Assembly (NCBI RefSeq): GCF_003721565.1
Contig: NZ_RJJE01000003.1
Coordinates: 62,001 to 126,000, forward strand
From: Rufibacter immobilis
GTDB taxonomy: Bacteria; Bacteroidota; Bacteroidia; Cytophagales; Hymenobacteraceae
Direction: 5' to 3'
Length of the DNA stretch: 64,000 nucleotides
In this document: piece by piece, positions 3,348 to 62,255 of the stretch
How positions within the stretch are numbered: the stretch's first letter is position 1
Layout: every line of letters begins with the position of its first letter
Notes under the pieces: model-generated
Databases searched by the model: none
What the model was told of the DNA's origin: nothing
Seen by the model: the letters and a program-made list of their open reading frames with translations, nothing else
Translations under genes and position numbers: made by a program

Positions 3348-3384
3348 GTTTTGGCTTTATTCTGGAAAAACGGCCGCTAAACGC
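3348..3384. repeat. Palindromic repeat copy 1 (degenerate)
   Basis: Left arm GTTTTGGCTTTATTC is decayed. Right arm GGAAAAACGGCCGCTAAACGC is better kept. It lies in the gap upstream of the SCO operon. Confidence 0.6.
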
Positions 3385-3452
3385 AACCATAGCAAATTAT
3401 AGACCTACCCTGATCTGACCACTTCTCATTCACTTATTCAGACTAGCTTCCT

Positions 3453-3490
3453 GGTTTTTGCCCGTTTTTGAGAAAAGAGCCGCTAAACGG
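3453..3490. repeat. Palindromic repeat copy 2 (degenerate)
   Basis: The right arm AAAAGAGCCGCTAAACGG is clear and the left arm is largely lost. It is about 70 bp from copy 1 and close to the terminator at 3518. Confidence 0.6.
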
Positions 3491-3517
3491 CCATGCAACC
3501 GTTAGCCCGTAAAACAA

Positions 3518-3544
3518 AAGAGGCTGCCCTAAGGGCAGCCTCTT
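3518..3544 (-). terminator. Terminator of the Arg/Asp/Tyr-rich gene
   Basis: Perfect stem AAGAGGCTGCCC / GGGCAGCCTCTT with a 3-nt loop. On the minus strand it is followed by TTTGTTTT, 23 bp after the stop of the gene at 3567. Confidence 0.8.
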
Positions 3545-3566
3545 CTAAAACATCAACGTTACCAGT

Positions 3567-4556
3567 TTACCAACTGAAGTCATCGCCGGAAGGCGGTTGG
3601 GAGCCTTGGGTTCTCACGTGGCCACTCATGGGATCATAGCGGCGCTCGCGGTCATCTTTGGCTTTGAAGTTTCCGCCGTAGCCCCAGCTCAGGGAACCGG
3701 CCGTATTGCCGTAGTCTTCACTGCGGGTTCCTTCGCCCTGCTGGTTGTAGTGGTCGCGGGGGGCTTGGTTGTAATCCAGCTGGTTGCTGTACTCTGAGCG
3801 GGTGCGGCGGTCATAACCGCTGCTGTCCAGGTTGCCCAACTGCCGGCCGCGCTCGTACTCGCCGCGGTTGTAGTGCGACTGGGAATCGTCGTAGATCTCG
3901 TAGCGGCTGTCATCGCCCCGGCGGGAGATGTCGTTGGTGCCAATGTCGCGCACGCCGCCTCTGGAGCCGGCGCGGTCTGAGGGTTGCCAGCCTCTGGTAT
4001 TGTCGGCGCCGCGGCTTCCCGGACGGCCAGAGCCATCGTACTGCTCGCGTTCGCCGGGGGCGAAGCTGTTATGGTCGCGGTAGGCGCCGTACACCTGGCG
4101 GTTCACGTGGCGGTTTTCATCGCGGCCGTGGCCGCTGGCCCATTTAGACCCGTCTGAATTGTTGCCATGGTAGCCGTTGCTGGAAGAACCCCAGCCTTGC
4201 GCGCCGCCGTAGCTGCCCATGTTACCGTAGTTGCGGGTAGAGCCTTCCAGACCGTTGTTGTCTTCATGGGCGCCCATATTGTCAAAGCGTTCGCCGCGGC
4301 GGTTGGGGTCTCTGCCGTAGTCGCGGGGGAGCTCATGGTCTCTCTCGCGGCGTCTGTCTTCGGCGGAACCGCGGTATTGGTTGCTGCGGTAGTCGCGGCT
4401 TATGTCACGGTCATTGAAGTTCTGGCGGTTGAGGCGGTCATATTCGTTTCGGCGGTCGTTGTCCTGGCGGTAGGCGCCGCGGTACTGGTCCTCGTCTGCG
4501 CGCTGGTTATGTGAACGGCCGCGGCCGTAGTCCTGTGATCTATCGTTTCTGTTCAT
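3567..4556 (-). CDS. Low-complexity Arg/Asp/Tyr/Gly-rich protein
   Basis: 329 aa from the ATG at 4556 (an in-frame extension to 4580 lacks support). The whole protein is built of R, D, Y, N, G, S and Q with many RDY, DRR and YRG triplets, and no hydrophobic core, signal peptide or membrane segment is visible. It should be intrinsically disordered and may bind nucleic acid or phase-separate; this is inferred from composition only. It ends in SGDDFSW. The next gene upstream on the same strand encodes another disordered protein. No family recognised. Confidence 0.7.
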   Translation of the reverse strand: MNRNDRSQDYGRGRSHNQRADEDQYRGAYRQDNDRRNEYDRLNRQNFNDRDISRDYRSNQYRGSAEDRRRERDHELPRDYGRDPNRRGERFDNMGAHEDNNGLEGSTRNYGNMGSYGGAQGWGSSSNGYHGNNSDGSKWASGHGRDENRHVNRQVYGAYRDHNSFAPGEREQYDGSGRPGSRGADNTRGWQPSDRAGSRGGVRDIGTNDISRRGDDSRYEIYDDSQSHYNRGEYERGRQLGNLDSSGYDRRTRSEYSNQLDYNQAPRDHYNQQGEGTRSEDYGNTAGSLSWGYGGNFKAKDDRERRYDPMSGHVRTQGSQPPSGDDFSW

Positions 4557-4610
4557 GGTGTTAAACGTTAAGTGCAACAAACAGCTTCTGTTAACGGCAA
4601 GTGAGGGGTT

Positions 4611-4649
4611 GCGGTTTTGGGGCCGATTTTCCGAAAAAAGGCAAAAACC
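4611..4649. repeat. Palindromic repeat copy 3 (very degenerate)
   Basis: GCGGTTTTGGGGCCGATTTT then CCGAAAAAAGGCAAAAACC. It keeps the spacing and A/T centre of the repeat between two disordered-protein genes. Confidence 0.45.
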
Positions 4650-4670
4650 AGGTTTGCCGCGCCGCGTGCC

Positions 4671-5025: not shown

Positions 5026-5073
5026 AAACCCGTTTAGGGGCTGTTTTTGGAAAAACGGCCCCTAAACGGGTTT
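5026..5073. repeat. Palindromic repeat copy 4, extended stem
   Basis: Arms of 23 bp (AAACCCGTTTAGGGGC on the left, mirrored on the right) with one G/A difference. The AAACC/GGTTT ends are specific to this copy. It sits just after the stop of the zinc-ribbon gene and may end its transcript. Confidence 0.9.
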
Positions 5074-5845: not shown

Positions 5846-5884
5846 ACGGTTTGGCGCTGTTTTCAGAAAAAGAGCCGCTAAACG
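5846..5884. repeat. Palindromic repeat copy 5 (degenerate left arm)
   Basis: ACGGTTTGGCGCTGTTTTC paired imperfectly with GAAAAAGAGCCGCTAAACGC. A further half-copy (CCGTTTAGCACCCC) precedes it at 5827-5840. Confidence 0.65.
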
Positions 5885-6263: not shown

Positions 6264-6932
6264 ATAGCTATTTTTTTTCCTGCATGATTAATTCGGTGAG
6301 TTGGTCATTTTTCCAGTTAAACTTACCGCACCGCCAGTTGAACATTCTCAACTTACGGATTAATCTTCAGCGTTGGATTTTACAAGCTTTTCAGAAACTC
6401 AGAATAATTTTTTGAAAGCCAGAATATTGTCTGCGCCTTCATTATAGTACAATAATAAAAAATAGTAAGACAAAAAGCACTCATATTACTTAACTACAAT
6501 CAGATTATTGAAAAGTTTATATTTTAAATCTTTAATTATAAATCTACCTTTGACGTAATTATTGAACTAAAGTTTCAAAATTTAATGTTACTGCCCACAA
6601 ATACCCCCTTGTAACATTATTTTTCCTGTATTCAGGCTCAAGAGTGCTTACAAGAGACAAAGATCAAAATACCCAGTAAGTACAATTAAAAAAAGCTATA
6701 TATGAAACAGCCATACACTCTCTTTAGTCAATCAGTTTCTTTTTCTGATACCTACTGCTACCTCCAGCCTATAGCAGGCGCTGCCGTTTATCATTCCCCC
6801 GTGATTATAGGCCAGACGTCACCGCTCGCGGTTTAACCTTTTAAAGAATGGACACCTTAACCGCATAACCCTGCACCGTTGGTTTCCCCTCTTTCAAATA
6901 AAACTATAACCAAACATTTCTTAGCTGGCACC
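6264..6932. other. AT-rich leader and promoter region of the giant surface protein
   Basis: No protein gene is visible. The segment is clearly richer in A/T than its surroundings (especially 6400-6620). It holds a candidate promoter: TTTT at 6522, 19 bp, then TACCTTTG at 6545-6552. If used, the transcript of the gene at 6933 would carry a leader of about 370 nt. Confidence 0.4.
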
Positions 6933-9900
6933 ATGGCGCCTATAAAACAGTTCTTTCAATCACTGGGCTTTCTGCTCCTGTTGAGCTACGCTTCCTACGC
7001 CCAAACCTGCCCAGACCAACCTGATGCCTCCCTGGCCGACGCCAATGAGGAGAACTTCACCCGGTGTAGCTCGGTGGGCGGATCTGTCAACTACCAATTG
7101 GTGGTGACAAACGAATCTAAAACCTCATCTACCAACCGCCAATACACCATTGAGTGGGGAGACGGCAGTTCCAACACCTATCCGGCAAATTTTACCGGTG
7201 CCACCCACACGTACACCAGCCAGGGTAGCTTCAACTTGAAGTACACCGTGACCAGCGCAAGCGGGTGTACGGAGACTAAAACCTATTCTGTTTTCAATGG
7301 AAGCACGCCGGGCATTGGTATCCAAAGCCCTAACAACACGTCTGAATGCGCCCCGGCAGCCTTCACCTTCGGTATTACCGGTACTGAAGCCAATGCCACC
7401 AACACCACTTATAAAATCTGGTTTGATGACGGAACTGATACACTGAGATTCACACAGGAGACTATACCCTCTTCTATTACCCATGCCTTCACCAAATCTT
7501 CAGAAGGCAAGCCGAAGGGCTTCACGATGTACGCGGTGGCCTACGGCTGTATTCCCAAGCAAGCCGAGGTTAGCGGTATCATTATCTCCACCAAACCAAT
7601 TCCGGCTTTCTCTATCTCCCCAGAAGGCGCAATCTGCCCTAACCAAACGGTGAAACTGAACGACCAGACCAAAGGCGGCTTTAACGGGAACAACGTGGGT
7701 GGTAACACCAGCGGCTACCGCCGACTCTGGACTATTTCTCCTAGCACCGGCTGGGAATTCACAAACTCCACCAACGCCTCTTCCATAAGCCCTTCCATCC
7801 TTTTCAAGGAGAAAGGATCTTATAAAATCACGTTGGCGGTAACCCCTTCCGGAACCAGCTCCACCTGCTTGGGCGACTCTATTATCAAAACTATTGTGGT
7901 GCAAGACCTTCCTGCGGCAGCCACCGCAGCCCCAGCCACTATCTGCTCCGGCACCACCGCTACCTTAACGGCTGAGGGAGACGCGCCTATCTACAGATGG
8001 TTCGCCACCGCCACTGCCACCACGCCATTATTTACCGGTGCTACTTTCACCACCCCGACACTTACCAAAACCACTACTTATTATATTGAGGCCGCGCTTA
8101 ACGGCGGTTGCGCCAACCCTACCCGTACCCCGGTTACTGTAACAGTGCAGCCCTTACCGGCTATCCCATCAGCTCCCGGTGTGGCTACCTGCGTGGGCAG
8201 CCCCGCTACCCTGAAAGCGACCACCTCTGCGGGCAAAGTATACTGGTACGCCACTGCCACCGGCGGTGATACGCTGGCCACCGGCAACACTTTTGTTACG
8301 CCGGCCCTTACCGCTACCACTACCTATTATGCGGCTACTCTTTCCCCGCAAGGCTGTTTCTCTTCTTCCCGCAGGGCAGTAAAAGTAACCGTACAACCCG
8401 TGATCAGTGGAAACACCATCAGCGCCCCCCAAATCCTGTGCGAAACAGAACCTGCGGCTACCTTAACGGGCGGAACCCCGAAAGGCGGCTCCGGCAACTA
8501 TACGTATCTCTGGGAAAGCAGCCAGGATGGCGTTACTTTCATAGATGCCAATAAAGATGTAGAAGGCGGTAACAATGGGGCTAATTATAACCCGGGGGTT
8601 CTTGGCAAGACTACTTGGTTCAGACGCACTGTCATCTCCGGCACCTGTTCAGATATTTCTGACCCTGTTCAGATCACAGTAGTACCTCAGGTTACGAATA
8701 ACATTGTTCTTGCGGCAGCTCCAACCATCTGCTATGACGCCACTACTACCATTGCTGGCTCTGTGCCTGCCGGGGGAAACGGAGGAACTCCTGCGTACCT
8801 CTGGGAAACCAGCACCACCAGCGCCACCGAAGGTTTTACCTCAGCAGCAGGAGATAACAATAAACAGTCTTATGAAACCGCAGAACTGAAGGAGAATACT
8901 TGGTTCCGTCGCAAAGTGACCATTGATGGCTGCGTTCAAACGTCAACAGCCGTGTTGGTTTCCATCAATATGATCTCCTTCCCTCCCAAGGCAGCCAGTG
9001 TTACCATCTGCTCCGGCGCTACGGCTACTTTAACTGCCACGGCTCCCGGCGGACCATATGAGTGGTATATCAGCGCCACCGCAAAAGCCCCTATCTTCAC
9101 TGGTGATACCTTTACCACAGAAGTGCTTTTTGCCTCTACTTCTTTCTTTGTGCAAAGCAAAGCCACCGGCAACTGCTCTGAGGCCCGTACTGAGGTAAAA
9201 GTAACCGTACAGCCTCCTATTGCCAACAACACCATTGCTGGCGTACAGGAGATCTGCACTGGCAGCACTCCCACTTCTCTTACCGGCACAAGACCTACCG
9301 GTGGCGATGACACCCCTATCTATGTATGGGAAAGCAGAGTGGACAAGGAAGGCACAGTGTTCGGTCTGGCAGCCGGCACCAGAACAAACCAGAATTATGC
9401 TCCTACTGCCTTGACGGAAACCACCTTGTTCCGCCGCAAAGTGACCATGGGCACCTGCGTGGAATATTCTAACGAGATCAGAGTAGTAGTGACTCCGGCC
9501 CTGACCAAAGTAACCATGCCTGCTGACATGATGGTGTGCGAGGGAGCTTCTGCCCCCATTATTAATGCCCCGGTTGCTCAAGGCGGAAACGGCAAGTACA
9601 TCTATAAGTGGGAGGTTAGCTATTCAAGCGCCACCACTGGTTTTGACACTGCCCCTGGCACTTCCAATGAGGCTACCTACGCCCCTAATATCCTGAAAAA
9701 CAATGCCTGGTTCCGCAGAATTACCATCTCTGGCAGTTGCCAAATAGTAAGCTCAGCGGTAAAAATAAGCGTATTGCCTTTGCCAGCTCTGCCAATTGCC
9801 AAAGACGTTGTGGTTTGCCAGAACGCCGTGGCCACCCTTACCGCCACTCCGGCCTCTTCCAACCAGAAAATTCAATGGTTTGATGTAGCCACTGGTGGCA

Positions 9901-13200: not shown

Positions 13201-13268
13201 TTAAAGCAGTAGTGCCGTTTAGGGGCTCTTTTTAGAAAAAGAGCCCCTAAACGGCACTACTGCTTTAA
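13201..13268. repeat. Palindromic repeat copy 6, longest perfect stem (terminator-like)
   Basis: Two perfect 33-bp arms around a 2-nt centre (AG). The inner 19 bp are the family core with GGGGCTC/GAGCCCC. The outer 14 bp (TTAAAGCAGTAGTG and its complement) occur only here. It lies 14 bp after the PorP/SprF stop. Confidence 0.97.
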
Positions 13269-14612: not shown

Positions 14613-14650
14613 CGTTTAGCGGCCGTTTTTCTAAAAATAGGCCCTAAACG
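14613..14650. repeat. Palindromic repeat copy 7 (degenerate)
   Basis: CGTTTAGCGGCCGTTTTT then CTAAAAATAGGCCCTAAACG. Several stem mismatches. It lies between the His-tailed membrane protein and the HD-domain gene. Confidence 0.8.
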
Positions 14651-16417: not shown

Positions 16418-16459
16418 TGCGTTTAGGGGCTCTTTTCTGAAAAAGAGCCCCTAAACGCA
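16418..16459. repeat. Palindromic repeat copy 8 (intact), terminator position
   Basis: TGCGTTTAGGGGCTCTTTTC and GAAAAAGAGCCCCTAAACGC arms, only 9 bp after the ABC ATPase stop and before the converging YciI gene. Confidence 0.95.
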
Positions 16460-16798: not shown

Positions 16799-16902
16799 GG
16801 GGAATAACGTTGGTTGAAGTTCCTAAAGTAAGGAATTTACTCAGATTTATCGGTTTGGGTTTTGGTAGCGGTTCTTCTGCCCTTTTCTGTTTTCCCGGCT
16901 CC

Positions 16903-16940
16903 AGTTTTGGCCTCTTTTCCAAAAAAGAGCCCCTAAACGC
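16903..16940. repeat. Palindromic repeat copy 9 (decayed left arm)
   Basis: The right arm AAAAAAGAGCCCCTAAACGC is intact; the left arm GTTTTGGCCTCTTTTCC is altered. It lies between the divergent YciI and phosphoesterase genes, so it is not a terminator here. Confidence 0.8.
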
Positions 16941-22347: not shown

Positions 22348-22430
22348 AGCCCCTAAACAGAAACTCCACGGTTCTTGCTCATGGAGTTTCTGTTTAGGGG
22401 CTCTTTTTCTAAAAAGAGCCCCTAAACGCA
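22348..22430. repeat. Palindromic repeat copy 10, compound of three half-arms
   Basis: An outer hairpin pairs CCCCTAAACAGAAACTCCA (22350-22368) with TGGAGTTTCTGTTTAGGGG (22382-22400). The same GTTTAGGGG then pairs with CCCCTAAAC at 22419-22427 in a normal repeat hairpin. The middle arm can therefore pair left or right. Confidence 0.92.
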
Positions 22431-24427: not shown

Positions 24428-24467
24428 GCGTTTAGGGGCCGTTTTTGGAAAAAGAGCCCCTAAACGC
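24428..24467. repeat. Palindromic repeat copy 11 (intact, mismatched neck)
   Basis: GCGTTTAGGGGCCGTTTTT and AAAAAGAGCCCCTAAACGC. The CCG/GAG neck does not pair. It lies between two converging genes (sugar dehydrogenase and the 82-aa protein). Confidence 0.95.
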
Positions 24468-26631: not shown

Positions 26632-26681
26632 CGTCTGCGTTTAGGGGCTGTTTTTCAAAAAACAGCCCCTAAACGCAGACG
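26632..26681. repeat. Palindromic repeat copy 12, perfect 24-bp arms
   Basis: Core with GGGGCTG/CAGCCCC, extended by a copy-specific CGTCT/AGACG. It is 20 bp after the stop of the glutathione peroxidase gene (read leftwards) and fits as its terminator. Confidence 0.96.
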
Positions 26682-27350: not shown

Positions 27351-27388
27351 CCGTTTAGGGGCTGTTTTTCAAAAAACGGCACTAAACC
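27351..27388. repeat. Palindromic repeat copy 13
   Basis: CGTTTAGGGGCTGTTTTTC with AAAAAACGGCACTAAACC. The right arm has drifted. It lies between glutathione peroxidase and the end of the efflux operon. Confidence 0.85.
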
Positions 27389-27447
27389 AGCGAAGGAGCC
27401 AATGGGCAAACCTTTCCTGAAACCCCACAACATTACGCAAACGCGGC

Positions 27448-29770: not shown

Positions 29771-29808
29771 CGTTTAGGGGCTCTTTTTCTCAAATTAGCC
29801 GCTAAACG
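29771..29808. repeat. Palindromic repeat copy 14 inside the efflux operon
   Basis: CGTTTAGGGGCTCTTTTT with CTCAAATTAGCCGCTAAACG (imperfect right arm), between the HlyD and MFS genes. Confidence 0.85.
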
Positions 29809-29894: not shown

Positions 29895-29934
29895 GCGTTT
29901 AGGGGCCGTTTTTGGAAAAAGAGCCCCTAAACGC
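29895..29934. repeat. Palindromic repeat copy 15 inside the efflux operon
   Basis: GCGTTTAGGGGCCGTTTTT / AAAAAGAGCCCCTAAACGC, 9 bp after the HlyD stop. It may lower MFS expression relative to HlyD if it ends some transcripts. Confidence 0.94.
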
Positions 29935-32935: not shown

Positions 32936-32975
32936 TGTTTAGGGGCCGTTTTTGGAAAAAGAGCCTCTAAACGCA
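32936..32975. repeat. Palindromic repeat copy 16
   Basis: TGTTTAGGGGCCGTTTTT / AAAAAGAGCCTCTAAACGCA. It lies between the divergent efflux operon and the Lys-rich protein gene. Confidence 0.92.
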
Positions 32976-35942: not shown

Positions 35943-35994
35943 TTCTTTGCGTTTAGGGGCTCTTTTTACAAAAAGAGCCCCTAAACGCAAAGAA
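35943..35994. repeat. Palindromic repeat copy 17, perfect 25-bp arms (bidirectional terminator)
   Basis: TTCTTTGCGTTTAGGGGCTC and its complement around AC. The TTCTTT/AAAGAA ends are specific to this copy. It fills almost the whole 68-bp gap between two converging genes. Confidence 0.97.
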
Positions 35995-37613: not shown

Positions 37614-37653
37614 CCGTTTAGCGCCTCTTTTTGGAAAAACAGCCCCTAAACGC
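37614..37653. repeat. Palindromic repeat copy 18
   Basis: CCGTTTAGCGCCTCTTTTT / GGAAAAACAGCCCCTAAACG, with mismatches in the neck. It lies between the binding-protein and LEA-2 genes (divergent). Confidence 0.88.
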
Positions 37654-38786: not shown

Positions 38787-38824
38787 TGTTTAGCGCCTCT
38801 TTTTGGAAAAACAGCCCCTAAACG
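38787..38824. repeat. Palindromic repeat copy 19, supplies a stop codon
   Basis: TGTTTAGCGCCTCTTTTT / GGAAAAACAGCCCCTAAACG. The right arm overlaps the 3' end of the response regulator gene: its TAG stop (38818-38820 on the minus strand) is the TAG of the repeat motif. Confidence 0.9.
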
Positions 38825-40659: not shown

Positions 40660-40698
40660 CGTTTAGGGGCTAATTTCTGGAAAACAGGCGTAAAACGC
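40660..40698. repeat. Palindromic repeat copy 20 (degenerate right arm)
   Basis: GCGTTTAGGGGCTAATTTC then GGAAAACAGGCGTAAAACGC. It lies 15 bp before the AlkC start codon, where it could form a hairpin in the leader. Confidence 0.75.
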
Positions 40699-43521: not shown

Positions 43522-46500
43522 ATGGCCCTCAAAATCAGCCCAACTCAGTCGCCTAAACCTGTCATTTTGCCCATTGCTCCCCTCCTCTTCACCAGACGGC
43601 AGTTCATTCCTCTGTTAGCGGGCATTGGCGTCATTGCCCTGGGTTTCCTCTTGATGGCCACGGATAGCACCCCGCACGGCTACGGCTTTCTGGGGCTCAC
43701 GCTGGGTCCGGCACTGGTGGTGTTGGGCTTGCTGGTGCCGTTTTGGGCCATTTTCAGGAAAAACAGCCCGGAAACGCAAACCCCAGCTCTTCTGCCCGCC
43801 TGGCGGGTGTACCGGCGGAGCAACACGCTGTTGGGCTGGGGCACGGCCTTCATGGCGCTGGCGGTGTACGTGCGCACGCTGGAGCCCAGCACCAGTTTCT
43901 GGGATACCGGCGAGTTCATTGCCGCAGCCTATAAACTGCAGGTTCCGCATCCGCCGGGGGCGCCGCTGTTCCTGCTCATCGGGCGGCTGTTCACGCTGTT
44001 GAGCTTCGGCGATGCCACCCAAGTGGCCTGGTGCATGAACTTCCTCTCGGCGCTGAGCAGTGCGGGCACGGTGCTGTTTCTGTTCTGGAGCATCACACTG
44101 CTGGCCCAGCGCCTGCTTCCGCTTTCGGCCGAAGGCCCTACCTTCCACCAACGCCTGCTGCTGCTCAGTAGCGGGGCCGTGGGGGCGCTGGGCTTCGCGT
44201 TCACTGATTCGTTCTGGTTTAGCGCGGTAGAGGCCGAGGTGTACGGCATGTCTTCTTTTTTCACGGCGGCGGTGGTATGGGCGGCGCTGAGGTGGCAAGC
44301 CGAGGCAGACCAACCCGAGGCGAACCGCTGGCTGCTGTTCCTGGCGTACCTGGTGGGTTTGTCTATTGGGGTGCACCTGCTCAACCTGGTGGCTATACCG
44401 GCCATTGCCCTGCTGGTGTACCTGCGCCGCCGCACACCTTCCAAATGGGGCATTATAGCGGCTTTAGCCGTGGGCGCGGCCATTGTGCTGGCCGTGATGG
44501 AAGGCGTTATTACCGGTTTGCCCTCCGTAGCCGGGGCGTTTGAAGTATTCTTCGTGAACAGCCTGGGCTTGCCTTACGGGGGCGGGGCCGTTATTTTTCT
44601 GGTGCTTCTGGTGGCCGGGCTGGTCTACGGGCTGCGCTGGGCGAAGAGAACCGGAAAGGTGCTGTGGCACCAGGCGCTGGTGGCGGTGGTGCTGGTACTG
44701 GTGGGCTACTCCTCTTACCTTATGGTGCCTATCCGGAGCGGCTACAACCCGCCCATTGACGAGAACAACCCCGAGAACATCCTCAGCTTTGTGAGTTACC
44801 TCAAGCGCGAACAATACGGCAGCCGGCCGCTGCTGTACGGGCCGCAGTTTCAGGGGCAGGCGCAGCGTTTTGACCAAGCCGGGTCCATTTACGCGCCCAA
44901 AAACCGCAGATACGAGGCAGTAGATGCCAAATACGATCCGGTGTACGCTGACCAGGACAAGTCGCTGCTGCCCCGCCTGTACTCCGACCAGCCCGTGCAT
45001 TTGCGGGCTTACCAGCACTGGGTGAACGTGCAGGCGGGGCAGAAACCCACTTTTGGGCAGAACCTGAGTTTTCTGTGGCACTACCAGCTGGGACACATGT
45101 ACTGGCGGTACTTCGGGTGGAATTTCATTGGCCGGGAGCATGACACGCAGCACGCCGGGGTGCTCTGGCCCTGGGAACGGAAGCACGATGTGCCCGCGCC
45201 GCTCTCCTCCAGCAAAGCCCGGAACCAGTTTTTCCTGCTGCCGCTGCTACTGGGCGTTTCGGGGCTGTTTTTCCAATTTAGGCGCCAAACCAGCGATGCC
45301 TGGACCGTAGCCCTGCTGTTCTTTTTCACAGGCATCGCCATTGTGCTGTACCTGAACCAGCCGCCCGTAGAACCCCGCGAACGCGACTACACCTTTGCCG
45401 GGTCATACTACGCCTTCAGCCTCTGGATGGGCCTTGGGGTCCTGGCTTTGGCCGAAGGGTTACGGAAACTCCTGAAACAGGCAGCGCCGGCCACGGGCTT
45501 GGCAATTGGGCTTTCGGTTCTGGTGCCGGTCCTCATTCTGGCCGAAGGCTATGACGACCATGACCGCTCCGGCCGGTCCCACGCCCTTGATTCGGCGAAG
45601 AACCTGCTGAGCTCCGTGGCCCCCAACGCCATTCTGTTCACCAACGGCGACAACGACACCTTCCCGCTGTGGTACGCGCAGGAGGTGGAAGGTTTCAGGA
45701 CCGATGTGCGCGTGCTGGTCATGACCTACCTCAACACCGATTGGTACCTTGAGCAAGCCAAACGACAGGTAAACGCTTCGGCCGCCTTGCCTTCCACACT
45801 GGAAATGCCGCACTATGCCTACAGCACGAACAATTACCTGCCCTACGTGCCCAACCCCAGCGTGCAGGACAGCGGCATGGACCTGAACCAGTACCTGCAC
45901 CTGCTCCAACAGCGCCACCCGGCCCTTCAGGTACAGACCCAGGACGGCCGAACCCTCAGCATCTTGCCCACCAAAAAGCTACAGTTGCAGGTGCATAGAA
46001 ACGCGGTGCTGCAAAACCGGACGGTAGCTCAGGAAAGGGCCACCCAGGTGCCAGATGTAATGCAGTGGGAACTACAGGCCGAGGCCCTGGAAAAGAAACA
46101 CCTGTTCCTGCTGGATATCATGGCCTCTAACCAGTGGCGGCGCCCCATTTATTTCGCCTCTACCGGCAGCGAAACGGCCGAGCTGGGTCTGCAACCGTTC
46201 CTGCAACTGGAGGGCATGGCCTTGCGCCTGACACCCGCCCGCAACCCAGACCCCGAGAGCGAAGCCTTCGTGGACCGCGTGCGCACCTACCGCAACCTCA
46301 TGCAGCAGTTCCGGTTCACCGGCCTTTCCAAGCCAGACAATTATTATGAGGAGAATTTTGTGAACCAGATAGTGCCCGTTTACCGCCGTAACTTCGCAGC
46401 CTTGGCCCTGGCGTATCTGCACCACGGCGAGCCCGAAAACGCCCGCAAAGTGCTCCAGAAATGCTTACGGATCCTGCCAGACGCCGGGGCACCGCACAAC

Positions 46501-47519: not shown

Positions 47520-47559
47520 GCGTTTAGGGGCTGTTTTTGGAAAAAGAGCCCCTAAACGG
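47520..47559. repeat. Palindromic repeat copy 23 (intact)
   Basis: GCGTTTAGGGGCTGTTTTT / AAAAAGAGCCCCTAAACGG. It ends one base before the stop codon of the SDR remnant. Confidence 0.95.
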
Positions 47560-51898: not shown

Positions 51899-51940
51899 TG
51901 TGTTTAGGGGCTGTTTTTGGAAAAAGAGCCCCTAAACACA
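51899..51940. repeat. Palindromic repeat copy 24 with compensated ends
   Basis: TGTGTTTAGGGGCTGTTTTT / AAAAAGAGCCCCTAAACACA. The usual CG of the outer stem is T/A here on both sides, so pairing is kept. It lies 13 bp after the stop of the TonB receptor. Confidence 0.95.
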
Positions 51941-54263: not shown

Positions 54264-54360
54264 AAATACGAAACTCTTTTACTAATGTTTAGACTTGTTT
54301 TATCACTTTGAATGTAAGTGGGATGGTGAGGAGCTTTTAGAAGGGCGGTGGCTGAGGTAG

Positions 54361-54538: not shown

Positions 54539-54557
54539 CATTTCGTAAATAGCTCGA

Positions 54558-54932
54558 ATGCCCAACAGAATCATACCATATCGCCAAGATTTAAGGGAGA
54601 AGGCCAGATACCTTCGCCAGAACAGCACCTTGGCAGAGGTGTTGCTGTGGGAAGAAATCAAAGACAGAAAATTAGGCTTTCAATTCCACCGGCAGGTGCC
54701 AATGCTCCACTACATCGTTGACTTTTACAGCCATGAATTGCAACTCGCCATAGAAGTTGACGGGGATAGCCATGATGATAAGGTAGCGTATGACCAACAG
54801 AGGGAGCAAGAGTTAAAAGCGTATGGAGTGAAGTTCCTCCGGTTTGAAGACATTGATGTGAAGCGGAATATCAGATATGTGGTGGAGGAGATTTACCACT
54901 GGATAGAGGAGCATAAGAACCAGCAGAAGTGA
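54558..54932 (+). CDS. DUF559 endonuclease-like protein (Vsr/PD-(D/E)XK fold)
   Basis: 124 aa. RQNSTLAEVLLWEEIKDRKLGFQFHRQVPMLHYIVDFYSHELQLAIEVDGDSH is the DUF559 signature, with the predicted nuclease residues Glu (AEVLLWEEI), Asp in VDFY, Glu and Asp in IEVDG. These proteins resemble very-short-patch-repair endonucleases and are typical of mobile or accessory DNA. It is complete. Direct repeats of 24 bp flank it and a long inverted repeat follows, so it may sit in a small mobile cassette. Confidence 0.88.
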   Translation: MPNRIIPYRQDLREKARYLRQNSTLAEVLLWEEIKDRKLGFQFHRQVPMLHYIVDFYSHELQLAIEVDGDSHDDKVAYDQQREQELKAYGVKFLRFEDIDVKRNIRYVVEEIYHWIEEHKNQQK

Positions 54933-54977
54933 CTCTCCTGTGTATATATTATCAGTATCTCAGCAAAATAATCTACC

Positions 54978-55039
54978 AAGCACAGATTCCCCCTTACAAG
55001 CATAGATCCTCCCCTTGCAAGCACAGATTCTCCCCTTGA
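54978..55039. repeat. Tandem repeat, three units of about 21 bp
   Basis: Units at 54978, 54998 and 55019 based on AAGCACAGATTCTCCCCTTG, with 2-4 differences. They lie directly after the DUF559 gene. Confidence 0.75.
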
Positions 55040-55194
55040 GGGGAGCGAAGAGGGGTGTTTACACCTGCAGGTCATGGCGTTCCCAACTATGGCGCGGAAA
55101 TTACTTCTGGGTCATAAAAGAAGAATATTTAACAATGCGTACTCTCCTGTGTAAACACCCCTCTTTATCTCCCCTCAAGGGGAGAATCTGCGCT
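55020..55194. repeat. Long inverted repeat downstream of DUF559
   Basis: Left arm 55020-55071 (AGCACAGATTCTCCCC...GTGTTTACACCTGCAGG) pairs with right arm 55146-55194, about 49 bp with few mismatches. Each arm also contains the small palindrome CTCCCCTTGAGGGGAG. Loop about 75 bp without a gene. The shape is that of a miniature element. Confidence 0.75.
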
Positions 55195-55300
55195 TAGAGA
55201 GAGTTATCGTTTACCTCTTACTTTCTTGATAAATACCTCTCATTTTTTATTAATAAAGGTTTCCTAAAAGGAAGCCCCTCTCCTACCCACCCATAAAACC

Positions 55301-55352
55301 CAAAAGCCGTTTAGGGGCTGTTTTTGGAAAAACAGCCCCTAAACGGCTTTTG
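55301..55352. repeat. Palindromic repeat copy 25, perfect 25-bp arms
   Basis: CAAAAGCCGTTTAGGGGCTG and complement around GG; the CAAAAGC/GCTTTTG ends are copy-specific and give T runs on both strands. It lies 17 bp after the DEAD-box gene stop and fits as its terminator. Confidence 0.97.
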
Positions 55353-55368
55353 CAAATGTACTTCGCTC

Positions 55369-56616: not shown

Positions 56617-56739
56617 GGGCGCAAAGGTTCCGGCCGGCGGCCGAGGTGGTGGCGGTTCTCCCCTTTTACGGTTCCCCCGCCGAAACTTCTGCAAAGGTGC
56701 GATTTCTTTCTGGGTTTTGCAGGCGGAGGCGGTGGTTTT

Positions 56740-56778
56740 GCGTTTTGGGGCTGTTTTTGGGAAAAGAGGTGGGAAACA
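56740..56778. repeat. Palindromic repeat copy 26 (degenerate)
   Basis: GCGTTTTGGGGCTGTTTTTGG then GAAAAGAGGTGGGAAACAG. It lies exactly at the change from GC-rich sequence to the AT-rich island. Confidence 0.65.
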
Positions 56779-56938
56779 GAATGAAATACCTTATATTGTA
56801 TTTCGAAAACCATATATTATTTAAGTGCAGTTGATTCTTATTTTGAAAGGTTAACTGCATTGAACAAATTCAGTGTAACCAAAATGATTGTAGTGATGCA
56901 GTTATCAAAAAATTGATTTCTATTGAAAATCATCAACA

Positions 56939-57373
56939 ATGCCATATACAACAGATACCAAAATTGAAATTGAGTTAAAAGAAGAATCAAAGACAACATA
57001 TATTATTTCTTCTCAACATCGCGCAACAGGAAATCCAAAAAAAACTGTATGGACAATTGATTTCAATGAAGAAGTTGAATGCTTTAAACAATCAAAAATA
57101 TCGGAGTGGATACAAGATAATTATAGTTGGGGAGTAAAAGCAATAGATTCTGTTCTACAATATATTGGGCATAACTTTGAGAATGAAACCCTCAAACTAG
57201 CAAAATTTGTTGATGGGAACGAAAATGATATTTGGCATGGGTACCCAGCCGATTACCTAAGACGGTCTCAAGATAGACCGCCAACTTTTATACTCAAGAG
57301 TTGGGTAGACAAAGGATATTTGACTAAAGCAAAAATGAACAAAATAAGAAGAGGACAACCGTGCGACCTTTAA
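56939..57373 (+). CDS. AT-rich island protein A, unknown function
   Basis: 144 aa. No signal peptide. It contains IEIELKEESKTTYIISSQH, a beta-rich start, then ISEWIQDNYSWGVKAIDSVLQYIG and a basic end YLTKAKMNKIRRGQPCDL. I recognise no catalytic motif. Base composition (about 30% GC by eye) and codon use with many AAA, ATA and TTA differ sharply from all neighbours, which indicates recent transfer. It overlaps gene B by 13 bp, so both are translated as a pair and probably work together. Confidence 0.72.
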   Translation: MPYTTDTKIEIELKEESKTTYIISSQHRATGNPKKTVWTIDFNEEVECFKQSKISEWIQDNYSWGVKAIDSVLQYIGHNFENETLKLAKFVDGNENDIWHGYPADYLRRSQDRPPTFILKSWVDKGYLTKAKMNKIRRGQPCDL

Positions 57374-58677
57374 AAATAAGTATAAAAGGAGATTATTATG
57401 ACTGCCAAATATATCGTGGCAGGTTGTACCTATGGGATTTTGATGGTGGACTAAAAGTATACGATTGGACTTCCATTATTCAAAGTTTAATAAAAAAAGA
57501 AACAGACAAAATAGCTTTTACTTTCAGTTTTTTAGATGGTAACTATCTTTATAAATCTTCATTAATTGAACTATTTAAAGATAAAGATTTCAAACAGCTA
57601 TTGTTAAAAAAATTTCAGAGATTAGAAAATAAAATATTTGAAATCACACAAAACAAATTAGAAAAATTTTTAATTGGAGAACAAGAGACTCCAACAGGAA
57701 TTTTACCAACTGATACTGAAATTTATAGTAATCAATTATATTTTATTCATGATGAAGGACTTTTTTCAGGTTCCGTCCATCGAGCAAAATCTGAAAAGTA
57801 TCCTGTAAGTTCAAGACCTGTGAAACTTTGGGACTGTAATTTATTATCTATAAAAGCTAATAAATATCCTCAAATAGCATTGTCAGGTGGAGATGAAGGC
57901 CTATTTGAGCTTAATACTTCAAGAGCTCAACCAGAGAATTTAAAAAAAGTAGAGACTAAAAAACCGATTTATCAAGTTAGTAGCGAACATTCTTCTTTTT
58001 CTAACTATTCTTATCTTAACATCTACAATACCTCACTTATCAAAGAGTCTTTTTTAGCCACCTTCAAATGGAGTGCAAAGCTAAACCCCACAGGCCAAAA
58101 GGATATTTCAAGAAATTTTGAAGAAAAAATCACGGACAAATTTTTATTTAAAACAAATTCAAATCAACATTTTGTAAGCTGGGGAATTGCTGACAAAATT
58201 TACAAAGCAAGAAATGGTGGATTTGAAATTATTAAATTCAACAATTATGCTAATGAAGAAAAAGGTGAGGAAAAATTTCAAATATTAACTTCTTTGAATC
58301 TTCAAGCTTGGAAAGGAGAAGTCACAAACGGCGGAACAGCATACTTCGGAAATATTGTCGAATGCGAAAACGCATTAATTGTAATTTTAAGTAACAACCA
58401 GACAATAACAATCCCTGGACCAATTACGAGATGGAGAGTCTATCCTAGGTCGATTAATTATGAAAATCATTTACACGTTATTCTTGACGAATCCATAGAT
58501 ATCTATTCTTTCAATCAAGACTATTTTTTAAATCAAGAAGAGAAAGCAATTGGAATTCAATTTCGAAATGAGAGGTCTGCTAGTGCACCACGAGGAAGTT
58601 ATTTTGACGATACTGACGTAAGTTTTTTCAATGATACTGACGAAAGTTTATTTGATGACCCTGACTTGCCTTTTTAA
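57361..58677 (+). CDS. AT-rich island protein B, propeller-like, unknown function
   Basis: 438 aa beginning with GTG at 57361 inside the end of gene A. The sequence alternates short beta-like segments with turns (QIYRGRLYLWDFDGGLKVYDW, ALSGGDEGLFELN, NENHLHVIL-type repeats), as in a degenerate WD/propeller protein; this is a shape impression only. The C-terminus has three acidic units, YFDDTDVSF, FNDTDESLF and DDPDLPF. No signal peptide. Same foreign composition as gene A. No defence or toxin family recognised. Confidence 0.72.
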   Translation: MRPLKISIKGDYYDCQIYRGRLYLWDFDGGLKVYDWTSIIQSLIKKETDKIAFTFSFLDGNYLYKSSLIELFKDKDFKQLLLKKFQRLENKIFEITQNKLEKFLIGEQETPTGILPTDTEIYSNQLYFIHDEGLFSGSVHRAKSEKYPVSSRPVKLWDCNLLSIKANKYPQIALSGGDEGLFELNTSRAQPENLKKVETKKPIYQVSSEHSSFSNYSYLNIYNTSLIKESFLATFKWSAKLNPTGQKDISRNFEEKITDKFLFKTNSNQHFVSWGIADKIYKARNGGFEIIKFNNYANEEKGEEKFQILTSLNLQAWKGEVTNGGTAYFGNIVECENALIVILSNNQTITIPGPITRWRVYPRSINYENHLHVILDESIDIYSFNQDYFLNQEEKAIGIQFRNERSASAPRGSYFDDTDVSFFNDTDESLFDDPDLPF

Positions 58678-58824
58678 TAGTACTGGTGGCAGCAAGCAAA
58701 CATATTAATGAATATCAAAATATGATTCAAGTCAAAAAGCCTTTTTATGCTAAATAGCAATTTTTAATGTGCTAATAAATGCTCATCATTCAGTTTGCGG
58801 ACCATTTCCTCAACAAATAACAAA

Positions 58825-60396
58825 ATGAAACCCCTCCTCCTCACCCTCTTCCTCCTCATAACCACCACCCTCGGTTTCACCCAAGGGCTCACCAGCGCGC
58901 AGATAGACGAACTGGCGCAGCGCACCCTACAGGCGTTCAACGTGCCGGGCATTGCGGTGGGCGTGGTGAAAGACGGGAAAGTGGTACACGCGGCAGGCTA
59001 CGGGGTGCGGAGTTTGAACAGCCACGAGAAAACCGATGCGCACACGCGCTTCGGGATAGCCTCTAACACCAAGGCGTTTACGGCCGCGGCGCTGGGGCTG
59101 CTGGTAGACGAGAAAAAACTCACCTGGGATGCCAAGGTGCAGGACTATATTCCGGAGTTCAAGCTGTACAACCCCTACGTAACCGAGGAATTCACCATCA
59201 GGGACCTGCTCACCCACCGCAGCGGCCTGGGGCTGGGCGCGGGAGATTTAATGCTCTGGCCAGACTCTAACAGTTTCACGCTACAGGATATTATCTACAA
59301 CCTGCGCCACCTCATCAAGCCTACCTCCAGTTTCCGGAGCAGGTATGACTATGACAACAACCTTTACCTGGTAGCTGGCGAAGTGGTGGCCCGCGTGAGC
59401 GGCAAAAGCTGGGACCAATTTGTGGAGGAGCGCCTGCTACAGCCCCTGGGCATGACCGAGACCGCTGCCAGCTATGAGCGCCTGAAAGACCACACCAACG
59501 TGATAGACGGCCACGCGGTAGTAGACGGCAAGGTGCGCGTGATTCAACGCCACCGCTCTGCCGTAGACCACGCCGCCGCCAGCATTTACAGCAGCGTGGC
59601 AGATTTAAGCAAATGGGTGTTGGTGCACCTGAACCACGGCCGGTACGGAAACGGCCAGCGCCTGTTCTCTGAAGCCGTGAGCAAAGAACTCCAGACCCCG
59701 CAAACGCTTATCCCGGTAAATAACCCGGGGCCGTACAACACCCACTTTGCCGCGTACGGGCTGGGCTTCAACCTCTCAGACGTGAAAGGCTACAAACAGC
59801 TCAACCACACCGGCGGCCTGGAAGGCATGGTCACCCAAATCACCATGATTCCCGAACTGAACTTGGGCGTTATTGTCCTGACCAACCAGCAGGAAGGCGG
59901 TGCGTTCAGGGCCATCGCTGACCAAATCAAAGACAGCTACCTGGGCCTCACCGGCACAGACCGCGTAGCCCAGTACGCCAAAGCCCGGCAGGAGTCGCTG
60001 GCCAGCGCCGGCAACGTGACCGATGCCATCTGGAAACAAGTAGCCACCGCCCAGAAGCAGCAGAAAAAGAACCCTAACTACAGCGCCTTTCTGGGTACCT
60101 ACCGTGACCCGTGGCTGGGCGAGGCCTTGATTTCCCAGAAGAACGGCCAGCTCTGGTTTGCCGCTAAAAAGTCACCTAAACTTTCTGGCGCACTGTTTCC
60201 CTACAAAGGCACTACCTACGTGGTAAAATGGACCGAGCGCAGCATGGACGCCGATGCCTTCGTAAATTTCTCGTTGGACTTTGAGGGCCGCGCCCAGGGC
60301 ATAACCATGCAGCCCATTTCCCCGCTCACTGATTTCAGCTATGATTTTCAGGACCTGAATTTTACCCGGGTGCCGGAGCCTAAAGCAAACCTGTAA
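58825..60396 (+). CDS. Serine hydrolase, class C beta-lactamase/PBP-like
   Basis: 523 aa from the ATG at 58825 (signal peptide MKPLLLTLFLLITTTLGFTQG). SNTK (Ser80, Lys83) is the active-site SxxK, YDN in RYDYDNNLY is the YxN motif and HTGG replaces KTG. Residues 410-520 form the C-terminal DUF3471-like beta domain (YSAFLGTYRDPWLG...). The family includes peptidases and esterases of the periplasm; resistance activity is not implied. GC-rich again, so it is outside the island. It is the last gene before a shared terminator. Confidence 0.92.
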   Translation: MKPLLLTLFLLITTTLGFTQGLTSAQIDELAQRTLQAFNVPGIAVGVVKDGKVVHAAGYGVRSLNSHEKTDAHTRFGIASNTKAFTAAALGLLVDEKKLTWDAKVQDYIPEFKLYNPYVTEEFTIRDLLTHRSGLGLGAGDLMLWPDSNSFTLQDIIYNLRHLIKPTSSFRSRYDYDNNLYLVAGEVVARVSGKSWDQFVEERLLQPLGMTETAASYERLKDHTNVIDGHAVVDGKVRVIQRHRSAVDHAAASIYSSVADLSKWVLVHLNHGRYGNGQRLFSEAVSKELQTPQTLIPVNNPGPYNTHFAAYGLGFNLSDVKGYKQLNHTGGLEGMVTQITMIPELNLGVIVLTNQQEGGAFRAIADQIKDSYLGLTGTDRVAQYAKARQESLASAGNVTDAIWKQVATAQKQQKKNPNYSAFLGTYRDPWLGEALISQKNGQLWFAAKKSPKLSGALFPYKGTTYVVKWTERSMDADAFVNFSLDFEGRAQGITMQPISPLTDFSYDFQDLNFTRVPEPKANL

Positions 60397-60401
60397 AGCA
60401 T

Positions 60402-60450
60402 CTTGCGTTTAGGGGCTCTTTTTTGAAAAGAAGCCCAAAACCAGCGCAAG
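60402..60450. repeat. Palindromic repeat copy 27 (drifted)
   Basis: CTTGCGTTTAGGGGCTCTTT opposite a decayed arm AAAAGAAGCCCAAAACC; the outer CTTGCG/CGCAAG still pairs. Six bases after the serine hydrolase stop. Confidence 0.8.
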
Positions 60451-60476
60451 CGCTCTCCCCCCGTTCGTTCTTTCAT

Positions 60477-60526
60477 AAAAACAACTCGGCCTGCTTCCCA
60501 TCAGAGAAAGCAGGCCGAGTTGTTTT
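60477..60526. terminator. Bidirectional terminator
   Basis: Perfect 19-bp arms AAAACAACTCGGCCTGCTT and complement, loop of 12 nt, between the converging serine hydrolase and glycosidase genes. Confidence 0.88.
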
Positions 60527-60553
60527 GTAGCGCTATTGAAGCAACCCCCGAGG

Positions 60554-62110
60554 TTACATACCCGCTTCGGGCAGGGTGGCTTCCTGGCGGTCGCTTTCGT
60601 TGCCCATGCGGTCTACGGAGGTAACAGCCACTTTCTTAAGCGGAAGCGCGGCCCCGGCTTTATCGGTGAAGGAGCGCAGCAGCGTGAAGGAGCGGTCGTT
60701 GCGGTTCAGGACTTTGTAGTTCCAGGCGTTGCCGTACTGGTAGTATACCACCGTTCTGAACGCATCTTTGGCCTCTTTGGGCACCCACACCACGCGCACG
60801 CTGTCGCCCTGCAGTTCTGTGCTGATGGAAGGGGCGGCCGGGGCAACCCGGTCTAACCAGGGGCTGGTGGGCACCAGCGCGTCATTCTTATAAGGTCCGG
60901 CCAGCAGGGCTTTGGCCATGGGCGGGTTTTTGGTCACCGAGGAAAGGCTCCAGTGGATCACGCCTTTGCTGCTGGGCAACATGCCGCGCGTGATCATGAT
61001 CTGGCTCATGATCTCCTGCACGTTGAGCGCGCTGCTGTCGCGGCCCACACTGATGCCGGGCCACAGGTGGCGTTTCATGGTGTTCTCCTGAGACCACCAG
61101 CCCAGCAACACCGGGAAACTCTGGTTCATCTGGTTGATCTTCCAGTACAGCTGCGGCGAGAAATAGTCAACCCAGCCTTTGTTCAGCCACAGGCGGGCAT
61201 CGGCGTAGAGGACGTTGTGCTGGTCAAAGCCCTGCACCGAGGCCGGGTAACCGGGCCGCCAAATCCCGAAGGGGCTCAACCCGAATTTCACATGCGCTTT
61301 TTCGGCTTTAATTCCTTTGTAGAGGCGCTCAATGAACTGGTTCACGGCCTGCCGGCGCCAATCTCCCCTGGACAAGGTGCCGCCGCTTTTCTGGTACGCC
61401 GCCCAGCTAACATCATCCGGAAAATCCTGGTCGCCGTTGTAAGACGGGTACGGGTAGAAGTAATCGTCAAAGTGCACGCCGTCAATGTCATAGCGCTTCA
61501 CCAGGTCCATGACCACGTTGTAGGAGTGGTCCTGCGTGCCCTGTTGGGCGGGGTCCAGCCAGTAATAGCCTTCTTTCAGGTGCACCACCAGCTCGGGGCG
61601 CTTCTTCACAATAGACTGCTCGCTTACAGGGCCACCGGCCACGTGGTGGGCGCGGTATGGGTTGAGCCACACGTGCAGTTCCATGCCACGGTCATGGGCG
61701 GCTTCGGTCCAGAACTCCAGCGGGTCATAGTACGGGGCCGGGGCTTTGCCCTGCTCGCCGGTGAGGTAATAAGACCAGGGCTCCAGGTCACTCTTATAAA
61801 GCGCATCGGCCTGCGGCCGAACCTGGAAAATGACCGCGTTGTAGTGGTGCTGTTGCAGGAAATCCAGCAGTTCAATGGCTTCGCGCTGCTGCTCCTCAGT
61901 ACTGAGACCGGGTTTGCTGGGCCAGTTGATGTTGGCCACCGTGGCTACCCAGGCGGCCCTGAATTCAGTTTCGGCTTTGGAACCGGGGGCCGGGGGACTT
62001 GGCTGCGCCGCGACTGGCTCCTGCGGAGCGACGGGCTTGGAGGTGGAGCAGGCCTGCAGGAACGCGAGGCAACAGAGGCTCACAAGGGAGAACAGAAGGT
62101 TTCTGTGCAT
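60554..62110 (-). CDS. Family 10-like glycosyl hydrolase lipoprotein (GHL10/DUF187)
   Basis: 518 aa from the ATG at 62110 (lipobox LQAC, Cys near 20). The GHL10 core starts at EFRAAWVATVANINWPSKPG and runs through YNAVIFQVRPQADALY, MELHVWLNPYRAHH, YDIDGVHFDDYFYPYP and WVDYFSPQLYWKIN, a TIM barrel with conserved acidic residues. A C-terminal Ig/fibronectin-like part follows (VRVVWVPKEAKDAFRTVVYYQYG). Members cleave wall-derived glycans at the cell surface. Codons upstream of 62110 run into a palindromic repeat and are not coding. Confidence 0.92.
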   Translation of the reverse strand: MHRNLLFSLVSLCCLAFLQACSTSKPVAPQEPVAAQPSPPAPGSKAETEFRAAWVATVANINWPSKPGLSTEEQQREAIELLDFLQQHHYNAVIFQVRPQADALYKSDLEPWSYYLTGEQGKAPAPYYDPLEFWTEAAHDRGMELHVWLNPYRAHHVAGGPVSEQSIVKKRPELVVHLKEGYYWLDPAQQGTQDHSYNVVMDLVKRYDIDGVHFDDYFYPYPSYNGDQDFPDDVSWAAYQKSGGTLSRGDWRRQAVNQFIERLYKGIKAEKAHVKFGLSPFGIWRPGYPASVQGFDQHNVLYADARLWLNKGWVDYFSPQLYWKINQMNQSFPVLLGWWSQENTMKRHLWPGISVGRDSSALNVQEIMSQIMITRGMLPSSKGVIHWSLSSVTKNPPMAKALLAGPYKNDALVPTSPWLDRVAPAAPSISTELQGDSVRVVWVPKEAKDAFRTVVYYQYGNAWNYKVLNRNDRSFTLLRSFTDKAGAALPLKKVAVTSVDRMGNESDRQEATLPEAGM

Positions 62111-62214
62111 GGGGTTTAGGTTTGGTGAGAGTTTGGTGTGCTGCATGCCTGCAGGAACGGCGGCTAAATTATGCAGCAAACCTGGTGGGAAGCAACCTTT
62201 CTTGGGCTGTTCCA

Positions 62215-62255
62215 GCGTTTTAGGGCTAAATTCCAAAAAACGGCCCCTAAACGCC
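62215..62255. repeat. Palindromic repeat copy 28
   Basis: GCGTTTTAGGGCTAAATTCC / AAAAAACGGCCCCTAAACGC, with a mismatched centre, upstream of the glycosidase gene. Confidence 0.85.

Follow-up and report, generated by a model that had tools for sequence, protein, structure and literature searches.

A palindromic element of two half-sites with species-specific spelling at transcription-unit ends in Rufibacter

The palindromes of the window and their distribution

The DNA analysed here, referred to as the window, is a 64,000-nt stretch of the genome of Rufibacter immobilis (GCF_003721565.1, contig NZ_RJJE01000003.1, positions 62,001-126,000). It carries 28 distinct copies of a palindromic element with the 38-bp consensus CGTTTAGGGGCYSTTTTTNNAAAAASRGCCCCTAAACG, called at 26 or more matches out of 38. 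With a mean spacing of 2.3 kb (64000/28), this reproduces the density given in an earlier note made from the letters of the window (hereafter the original prediction). The top score in three mononucleotide shuffles of the window was 25/38, below the threshold of 26, and a single-arm pattern with up to three mismatches had 41 window matches compared to 0.06 expected from 100 dinucleotide shuffles. The search of the whole genome (4,769,276 bases, 17 contigs) that had been proposed returned 942 copies with no more than three mismatches, far from a mere handful, and the reversed pattern returned none under the same conditions. From the element density of R. immobilis and its genome size, we extrapolate a total of about 2,200 elements. 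As predicted, the copies lie nearly always between genes. When gene boundaries were set with our own simple codon-usage gene caller, 26 of the 28 were intergenic and two weak ones (43739 and 45255) lay inside one open reading frame (ORF).

Each element consists of two half-sites in mirror order, with a genus form of about GTTTTnGGCCTGTTTTC and an R. immobilis form of GTTTAGGGGCYSTTTTT. The span is nearly fixed, at 36 bp in 200 and 35 bp in 21 of the 226 pattern matches in 520 kb of the R. immobilis genome, the own-genome sample used for many of the counts below, partly together with the window. A genus half-site matrix, trained on several species including R. immobilis and the window itself, retrieved 27 of the 28 window copies and missed only that at 3346..3383.

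The window copies were graded by their total score (out of 38) and by the scores of their two arms (each out of 17). Full palindromes, with two species-type arms, reach 38/38 in tandem settings at 5031..5068, 26638..26675, 29896..29933 and 47521..47558, the last with an orthologous element in five relatives and different arms in each. They do so between convergent genes at 24429..24466, 35950..35987 and 55308..55345, the last of which has an identical copy in R. sediminis (G010) and one with other arms in R. ruber (G001). Another 38/38 copy, at 13216..13253, lies 3′ of a PorP/SprF-family gene; its flanks pair for about 15 bp more, and R. hautae (G004) and Rufibacter sp. SYSU D00344 (G014) carry orthologues in other dialects. 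Within positions 6879-13186, this gene (type IX secretion) is preceded by a 1760-aa ORF with internal repeats. The other full palindromes are those at 16420..16457 (37/38, convergent, orthologous elements in G004 and G014), 22391..22428 (37/38, tandem), 32936..32973 and 37615..37652 (both 36/38, divergent), 51901..51938 (36/38, convergent), 14613..14650 (35/38, tandem, orthologous element in G014) and 38787..38824 (35/38, convergent). Hybrid elements, with one diverged and one species-type arm, stand in tandem at 3346..3383 (27/38, arms 8 + 16), 3452..3489 (30/38, 12 + 15), 4613..4650 (27/38, 15 + 10), 27352..27389 (33/38, 17 + 13), 29771..29808 (34/38, 17 + 13) and 62216..62253 (32/38, 11 + 17). 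Further hybrids lie between divergent genes at 5847..5884 (33/38, 13 + 16), 16902..16939 (32/38, 11 + 17) and 56741..56778 (30/38, orthologous elements in R. ruber and R. roseus, G007) and between convergent genes at 60406..60443 (32/38, identical copy in R. sediminis). The tandem copy at 40660..40697 (30/38, 14 + 12) has two intermediate arms and orthologues in G010 and G014. Unlike the other 26, the two weak elements at 43739..43776 (30/38, matrix score 29.3) and 45255..45292 (29/38, matrix score 26.2) are housed in ORF 43522-46770, which encodes a TMEM260-like protein of 1082 aa (PF11028). The original prediction had seen a range from perfect to strongly decayed copies; the weaker copies turn out to be mostly combinations of one species-type and one genus-type arm.

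The strict own-species pattern, with its 942 matches in R. immobilis, had 0-114 in 15 congeners and none in the 43 genomes examined from the rest of the family and the order. This contrast is mostly a dialect effect: across ten sampled genomes of the genus, the half-site matrix found 39-59 elements per 100 kb, with 0-2 matches in the reversed controls of the four genomes tested. Ten named loci, from nine Rufibacter and from Sabulibacter ruber (which the locus of G011, a congener in the database used, matches), held 88 elements; they cover about 198 kb and coincide in part with the genome samples. In 36 loci of other genera, outside the training set, 2 elements were found in 729,923 bases, and the reversed control gave 1. 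From 80 elements of ten genomes we built a covariance model, which had at least 116 matches in each of the 16 genus genomes (both palindrome strands counted), and outside the genus 0-5 matches at E ≤ 0.5 in 42 of 43 genomes. G037, from another family of the same order, had 70 matches to this model. The genus matrix, however, found 2 elements there against 5 in the reversed control (246,296 bases, about 6% of the genome), so that this is probably a different repeat, and we rejected it as a member of the family. Loci L189, L198 and L202 of G037 carry a dispersed hairpin with arms like GGTTTAGATGAAAAAAG. The palindrome family is confined to the genus Rufibacter, being abundant across it and, as the proposed search in related genera revealed, absent or nearly so outside.

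Gene-end position and conservation of sites

The position of the elements relative to genes was assessed for 127 strong copies from the 520 kb sample and the window. Of these, 44 lie between convergent genes, 71 between tandem genes, 11 between divergent genes and 1 in a gene, the intergenic DNA behind these counts being 25.5 kb convergent, 71.0 kb tandem and 39.7 kb divergent. Across all samples (732 elements), the density per kb was 2.81 in convergent, 2.00 in tandem and 1.03 in divergent intergenic DNA, and 0.03 in coding DNA. When intergenic regions shorter than 45 bp were excluded, at least one element was present in 154 of 193 convergent and 340 of 603 tandem regions. Strong tandem copies begin at a median of 29 bp past the stop codon (63 copies, 520 kb). 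Our data indicate that the elements mark the ends of transcription units. We considered the elements as substitutes for classical terminators and rejected this, as the two co-occur: among convergent regions of 60-800 bp in R. immobilis, 26 held both, 20 an element only, 3 a terminator only and 5 neither. By eye, some elements stand directly 3′ of the T-run of a separate terminator.

Orthologous gene pairs were then compared between species, those with an intergenic region below 45 or above 1200 bp being dropped (below 40 bp for the comparison of the window). Between G006 and G013, an element was present in both regions in 28 cases, in neither in 19 and on one side in 1. The corresponding counts were 46, 34 and 10 for R. 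hautae and G014, and 14, 13 and 2 for R. immobilis and G013. In tandem regions 80 bp or longer, R. immobilis and eight genomes shared an element in 79 cases compared to 53.9 expected, with 17 one-sided cases and 46 without an element. Some one-sided sites retain, by eye, a degenerate element on the other side. For the window, 33 comparisons with five genomes gave an element in both in 17, in neither in 13, in the relative only in 3 and in the window only in none. The distance from the stop codon differed by no more than 10 bp in 50% of the 80 site pairs compared, and in 15% after shuffling; sites where either side had several elements were dropped from this comparison and from those of core and flank identity, arm type and likeness given below. 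The presence of elements at orthologous sites is thus largely conserved, and a spread of the family, which the original prediction had considered, is therefore not visible: the same sites are largely found in the relatives, with little gain or loss.

Half-sites, dialects and the rewriting of arms

The two arms of an element combine close to independently. Arm classes in 217 elements agreed with independent draws (AA 112 observed and 108.6 expected, Ai 37 and 43.9, Ab 46 and 46.0, ii 8 and 4.4, bi 9 and 9.3, bb 5 and 4.9). Half-sites on their own are rare. The half-site GTTTAGGGGC stands in an element in 188 of 190 copies in the 520 kb and in 31 of 32 in the window, and the 2 lone copies in the 520 kb, both in genes, compare to 1.0 expected. 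The two central bases avoid complementarity, with a frequency of 0.06 compared to 0.32 expected in R. immobilis and 0.14 compared to 0.30 in nine other genomes. It had been suggested that the neck covaries. In the 127 strong copies of the 520 kb and the window, however, the neck types of R. immobilis combine about randomly (TC-TG 33 observed and 33.7 expected, TG-TG 25 and 20.9, CG-TG 16 and 20.3, CG-TC 15 and 16.3, TC-TC 13 and 13.6, CG-CG 7 and 4.9), and arm position 12 was paired in 51% of 112 elements, with 49% expected. The random combination of neck types leaves fold-back copying, in which one arm would be templated by the other, without support for the core.

Each species spells the half-site in its own way. 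The commonest arm starts are GTTTAGGGGC in R. immobilis, GTTTTCGGGC in G012, GTTTTTGGCC in both G013 and G006, and GTTTTAAGCC and GTTTTGGGCC in G005. Arms of the R. immobilis type account for 313 of 470 arms in this species and for 0-19% in nine other genomes. When 93 orthologous pairs at 32 own sites were classed by the number of species-type arms in R. immobilis and in the relative, 36 were (2,0), 25 (1,0), 26 (0,0), 4 (1,1), 1 (2,1) and 1 (0,1). In the window, 10 pairs were (2,0), 2 (1,0), 2 (0,0), 1 (2,2), 1 (1,1) and 1 (2,1).

How the own arms relate to their orthologues was examined at 28 own sites. Comparing each of them with as many as eight genomes yielded 81 site pairs, which are hence not independent. 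This analysis and those of core and flank identity, covariation, G-U pairs and outer stems used elements of exactly 36 bp. Where one arm is of the species type, that arm was no more like its orthologue than after shuffling (0.45 compared to 0.47, z -1.3), whereas the other arm kept its likeness (0.67 compared to 0.54, z 3.6), as did the centre (z 2.5). With two species-type arms, likeness was lost in both arms (z 0.3 and -0.4) and in the centre (z 0.4), and the flanks kept it (z 3.4 and 2.3). All parts kept their likeness where neither arm is of the species type (z 2.3-4.5), and core likeness was likewise retained in pairs without R. immobilis. This arm-by-arm loss suggests that arms were replaced singly and shed their local history. 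It is possible, if doubtful, that about two thousand sites at transcription-unit ends (an extrapolated number) were rewritten in place, half-site by half-site, into the dialect of the species while the sites themselves stayed where they were. Such rewriting would be concerted evolution of the half-sites via copying, or co-evolution with a putative reader protein; stepwise selection may lie behind the arm changes.

A DNA-level reading, its rivals and known systems

Our preferred reading, which we hold tentatively and at somewhat below even confidence, is that the palindrome is a DNA-level element of two half-sites at transcription-unit ends, read by a putative protein and serving as a boundary. 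A sequence-specific protein would bind the two half-sites independently, in a dimer-like manner, and its complex with the element would form a transcription boundary (a roadblock, an insulator or a topological anchor) beside the ordinary terminators. Some sites, a minority, have flanks that form an outer stem followed by a T-rich stretch, which would place the element at the tip of a terminator-like hairpin. The dialect would follow a change of the reader protein or a copying process. Genus restriction, gene-end position, positional conservation, near-independent arms and species dialects are direct observations. Several of them speak for a site at the DNA level, together with the fixed span, the rarity of lone half-sites, a core more alike than its flanks at orthologous sites, and G-U pairs that do not outnumber A-C pairs in the flanks or at positions 1-13. 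The independent half-sites at a near-fixed span are an indirect sign of a putative site for a dimeric protein.

The alternative that fares best, though we consider it rather doubtful, takes the element for an RNA hairpin at the 3′ ends of mRNAs, acting as a terminator or as a block to exonucleases. The position past stop codons agrees with it. Pairing gives a mixed answer. In the pooled alignment of 80 elements from ten genomes, 82 double-change cells were counted compared to 43.4 after shuffling, but this covariation arises because each species has its own dialect. Shuffling within species left no covariation at positions 7-17 in the nine other genomes (z -1.6 to 1.9). Pooled-species covariation can thus be a dialect effect instead of RNA structure, which calls for caution in other studies. 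Pairing above expectation was observed within species at positions 2, 4 and 5 (z 3.2-3.7) and at position 6 (0.54 compared to 0.39 expected, z 7.6), and covariation extends to most positions of the flanks, as far as position 9. Selection on pairing, one of two options in the original prediction, is not supported as stated: the excess of pairing is confined to these outer positions and the flanks and does not reach positions 7-17, and the RNA signature is slight. Counted on the sense strand of 291 elements, G-U pairs did not exceed A-C pairs in the flanks (279 and 269), at positions 1-6 (67 and 68) or at positions 7-13 (149 and 172), while an excess at positions 14-17 (77 and 50, p = 0.02) favours an RNA hairpin.

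The flanks also speak for an RNA hairpin. An outer stem of at least 7 bp was found at 44 of the 181 elements between convergent genes, 35 of the 391 between tandem genes, 3 of the 88 between divergent genes and none of the 31 in genes, compared to shuffled rates of 2.7%, 1.3% and 1.0% for the first three. A T-rich stretch follows 3′ of the extended stems (3.39 T in 8 nt compared to 1.54 A on the same side, 57 tandem elements), and 16 of these 57 have 5 T or more in 8. Orthologous outer stems may differ strongly between species and yet be paired in both, and 13 of 29 double changes in outer stems (36 sites) leave both sides paired. We considered template switching as the origin of the flank palindromes and gave it less weight, since these palindromes go with gene-end contexts. 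On the other hand, there is no general T-tract: among 252 elements, 5 T in 5 were found downstream of 24 and upstream of 19, and at least 4 T of 5 downstream of 71 and upstream of 73. The co-occurrence with classical terminators also speaks against the hairpin, as does the lack of any Rfam match in the window at gathering thresholds.

It seems unlikely that the family is a REPIN-like mobile one, kept by REP-associated tyrosine transposases (RAYTs) and now mostly resident at old sites. The RAYT search suggested in the original prediction was successful in that R. immobilis has eight matches to the RAYT family at E ≤ 0.001, one of them above the curated cut-off, and the family occurs in 16 of 16 genus genomes; a clear link to the palindromes did not emerge. 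RAYTs also occur in 34 of the 43 related genomes that lie beyond the genus, where the palindromes are absent or nearly so, and RAYT loci are not clearly enriched in them. The above-cut-off RAYT, of 181 aa (L005 1432-1977; contig C1 of the R. immobilis genome, G000, near 452.7 kb), lies between genes that we take, by eye, to be dnaE-like and thioredoxin-like. In G005, G007, G010, G012, G013 and G015, a RAYT likewise lies no more than 2 kb from the dnaE-like segment; this segment was used for the synteny comparison in place of a poorly conserved MFS protein. It agrees with the placement of the genome in Rufibacter, the named matches including R. ruber (99%), R. roseus (98%) and R. sediminis (97%). 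Over 14 RAYT loci (about 3.5 kb, one per genome), 22 elements equal the genome average, and two loci have none. The DNA within about 500 bp of the 14 RAYT genes (13,580 bases) carries 13 elements, at 9 of the 14 loci. This density of 96 per 100 kb is about twice the genome average and favours the mobile family, but it lies within the range of intergenic DNA in general (1.0-2.8 elements per kb), so that RAYT flanks may not be special. In three of the 14 loci (L026 1311-1389; L017, L019), another palindromic repeat, GGGATT..AATCC, stands near the RAYT and is a candidate for the REP of those RAYTs. The homogeneous species dialect also agrees with a mobile family, and the lost local likeness of rewritten arms suggests copying. 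The tag GTAG was found at 9 and CGTC at 2 of 540 element feet (within 8 nt, counted with no chance control), which speaks against the mobile family. No flank duplication of 4 or more bases, as a MITE or insertion-sequence remnant would show as its direct target-site duplication, was detected in the 127 strong copies. Flanks identical over 3 bases occurred once compared to 0.16 expected, and over 2 bases 12 times compared to 4.4, so that a duplication of 2 bases may occur. Movement as a unit to new sites was not found, given that presence at orthologous sites is conserved and the arms, combining independently, are not copied as one unit; slow movement may occur.

Far less probable is a family akin to DNA-uptake signals (DUS), with dialects driven by biased recombination after uptake as in Neisseriaceae. 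In its species dialects and in the inverted pairs close to terminators, the family is similar to the DUS dialects outlined in PMC3630211. Within window positions 51902-62251, three stretches of 1.5-3.4 kb share 92-94% identity with R. sediminis, and two elements there are the same in both genomes, whereas matches to R. sediminis at 30-50 kb of the window are mostly 69-80% identical. These stretches suggest a recent exchange, and exchange that brings elements along would accordingly occur. The middle stretch, which bears a DEAD-box helicase gene, reaches 92-95% identity in R. ruber and R. roseus as well, which makes it a weaker witness for exchange with R. sediminis. Lone half-sites are not above chance in R. 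immobilis, whereas intragenic DUS are described as common in the part of PMC3630211 drawn on here. Elsewhere in the window, positions 1447-1660 hold a run of GGTACTACC-like repeat units within short ORFs. Chance or base composition, in favour of which nothing was found, is refuted beyond reasonable doubt as the origin of the palindromes by shuffled and reversed controls near zero.

Several points weigh against the two-half-site boundary element and the rewriting of its arms, beginning with the G-U excess at positions 14-17 and the raised density next to RAYT genes. Divergent regions of at least 45 bp also bear an element in 82 of 201 cases, and the position could partly stem from avoidance of genes and promoters. 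The pairing of flanks at gene ends is explained equally well, or better, by a role as RNA or as a hairpin. Single inner positions covary in sub-groups (16 with z 4.2 in G004 and G014, 7 with z 2.8 in G006 and G013), and in R. immobilis positions 12, 13 and 17 pair below expectation (z -2.3 to -3.6). When convergent regions are taken alone, species agree in the presence of an element no more often than by chance (Fisher p 0.15-0.52), because nearly all of these regions hold one. The higher identity of the core over ungapped flanks at orthologous sites (0.83 and 0.47 in 20 pairs of G006 and G013, 0.79 and 0.66 in 32 pairs of G004 and G014) is in part a product of the search matrix. The genome samples overlap in orthologous regions, so that counts pooled across them are not independent, and the z values of the likeness test are inflated because its 81 pairs share 28 own sites. 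Where one arm is of the species type, the flanks keep little likeness (z 1.3 and 1.6), and the test for two new arms has low power where own arms hardly vary. Finally, the covariance model has a few single strong matches outside the genus (best E 2.4e-8 in G035 and 6.6e-7 in G022).

As an account of the locus, the original prediction stands in the abundance, the intergenic bias, the REP-like layout and the own sequence of the palindromes, and finds no support in the covariation of the neck within the genome and in spreading. One genus keeps a palindrome at most convergent gene ends, at largely stable sites and in a species-specific spelling. Extragenic palindromes are often taken as mobile or parasitic repeats; the Rufibacter case looks more like a fixed part of the gene end. 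It offers a natural system for the function of gene-end elements and for joint sequence change at very many sites. A literature search, mostly without full texts, turned up no description of this family.

Among known systems, REP/BIME elements are described in the section of PMC3733652 used here as palindromes of 20-40 bp, up to thousands per genome, mainly in convergent or unidirectional settings near the 3′ end of the upstream ORF, and CGTC repeats are reported there for Bacteroidetes without an adjoining transposase gene. Size, copy number and gene-end placement are alike, and the original prediction was right to see a REP-like layout with its own sequence in these short, high-copy, intergenic and mainly convergent or unidirectional palindromes. 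The GTAG/CGTC tag of REPs, however, is rare in Rufibacter elements (11 of 540 feet), and a near-fixed span of 36 bp, two independent half-sites and shared sites with differing dialects set them apart. With the REPIN/RAYT system, as far as PMC8049555 was drawn on, the family shares a mirror pair of arms, a large population around a common sequence and a RAYT in the genome, but it differs in having no clear RAYT linkage, independent arms and sites largely common to the species. The DUS of Neisseriaceae, in the account of PMC3630211 cited above, are similar in their very many short motifs, species dialects and inverted pairs at terminators, whereas the half-sites of R. immobilis do not occur alone above chance and elements reach only 0.03 per kb in coding DNA. 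Intrinsic terminators share the gene-end position and, for a subset of the elements, an outer stem with a T-rich tail. Unlike them, the Rufibacter element has a conserved core, no general T-tract and little wobble signal, and it occurs together with terminators.

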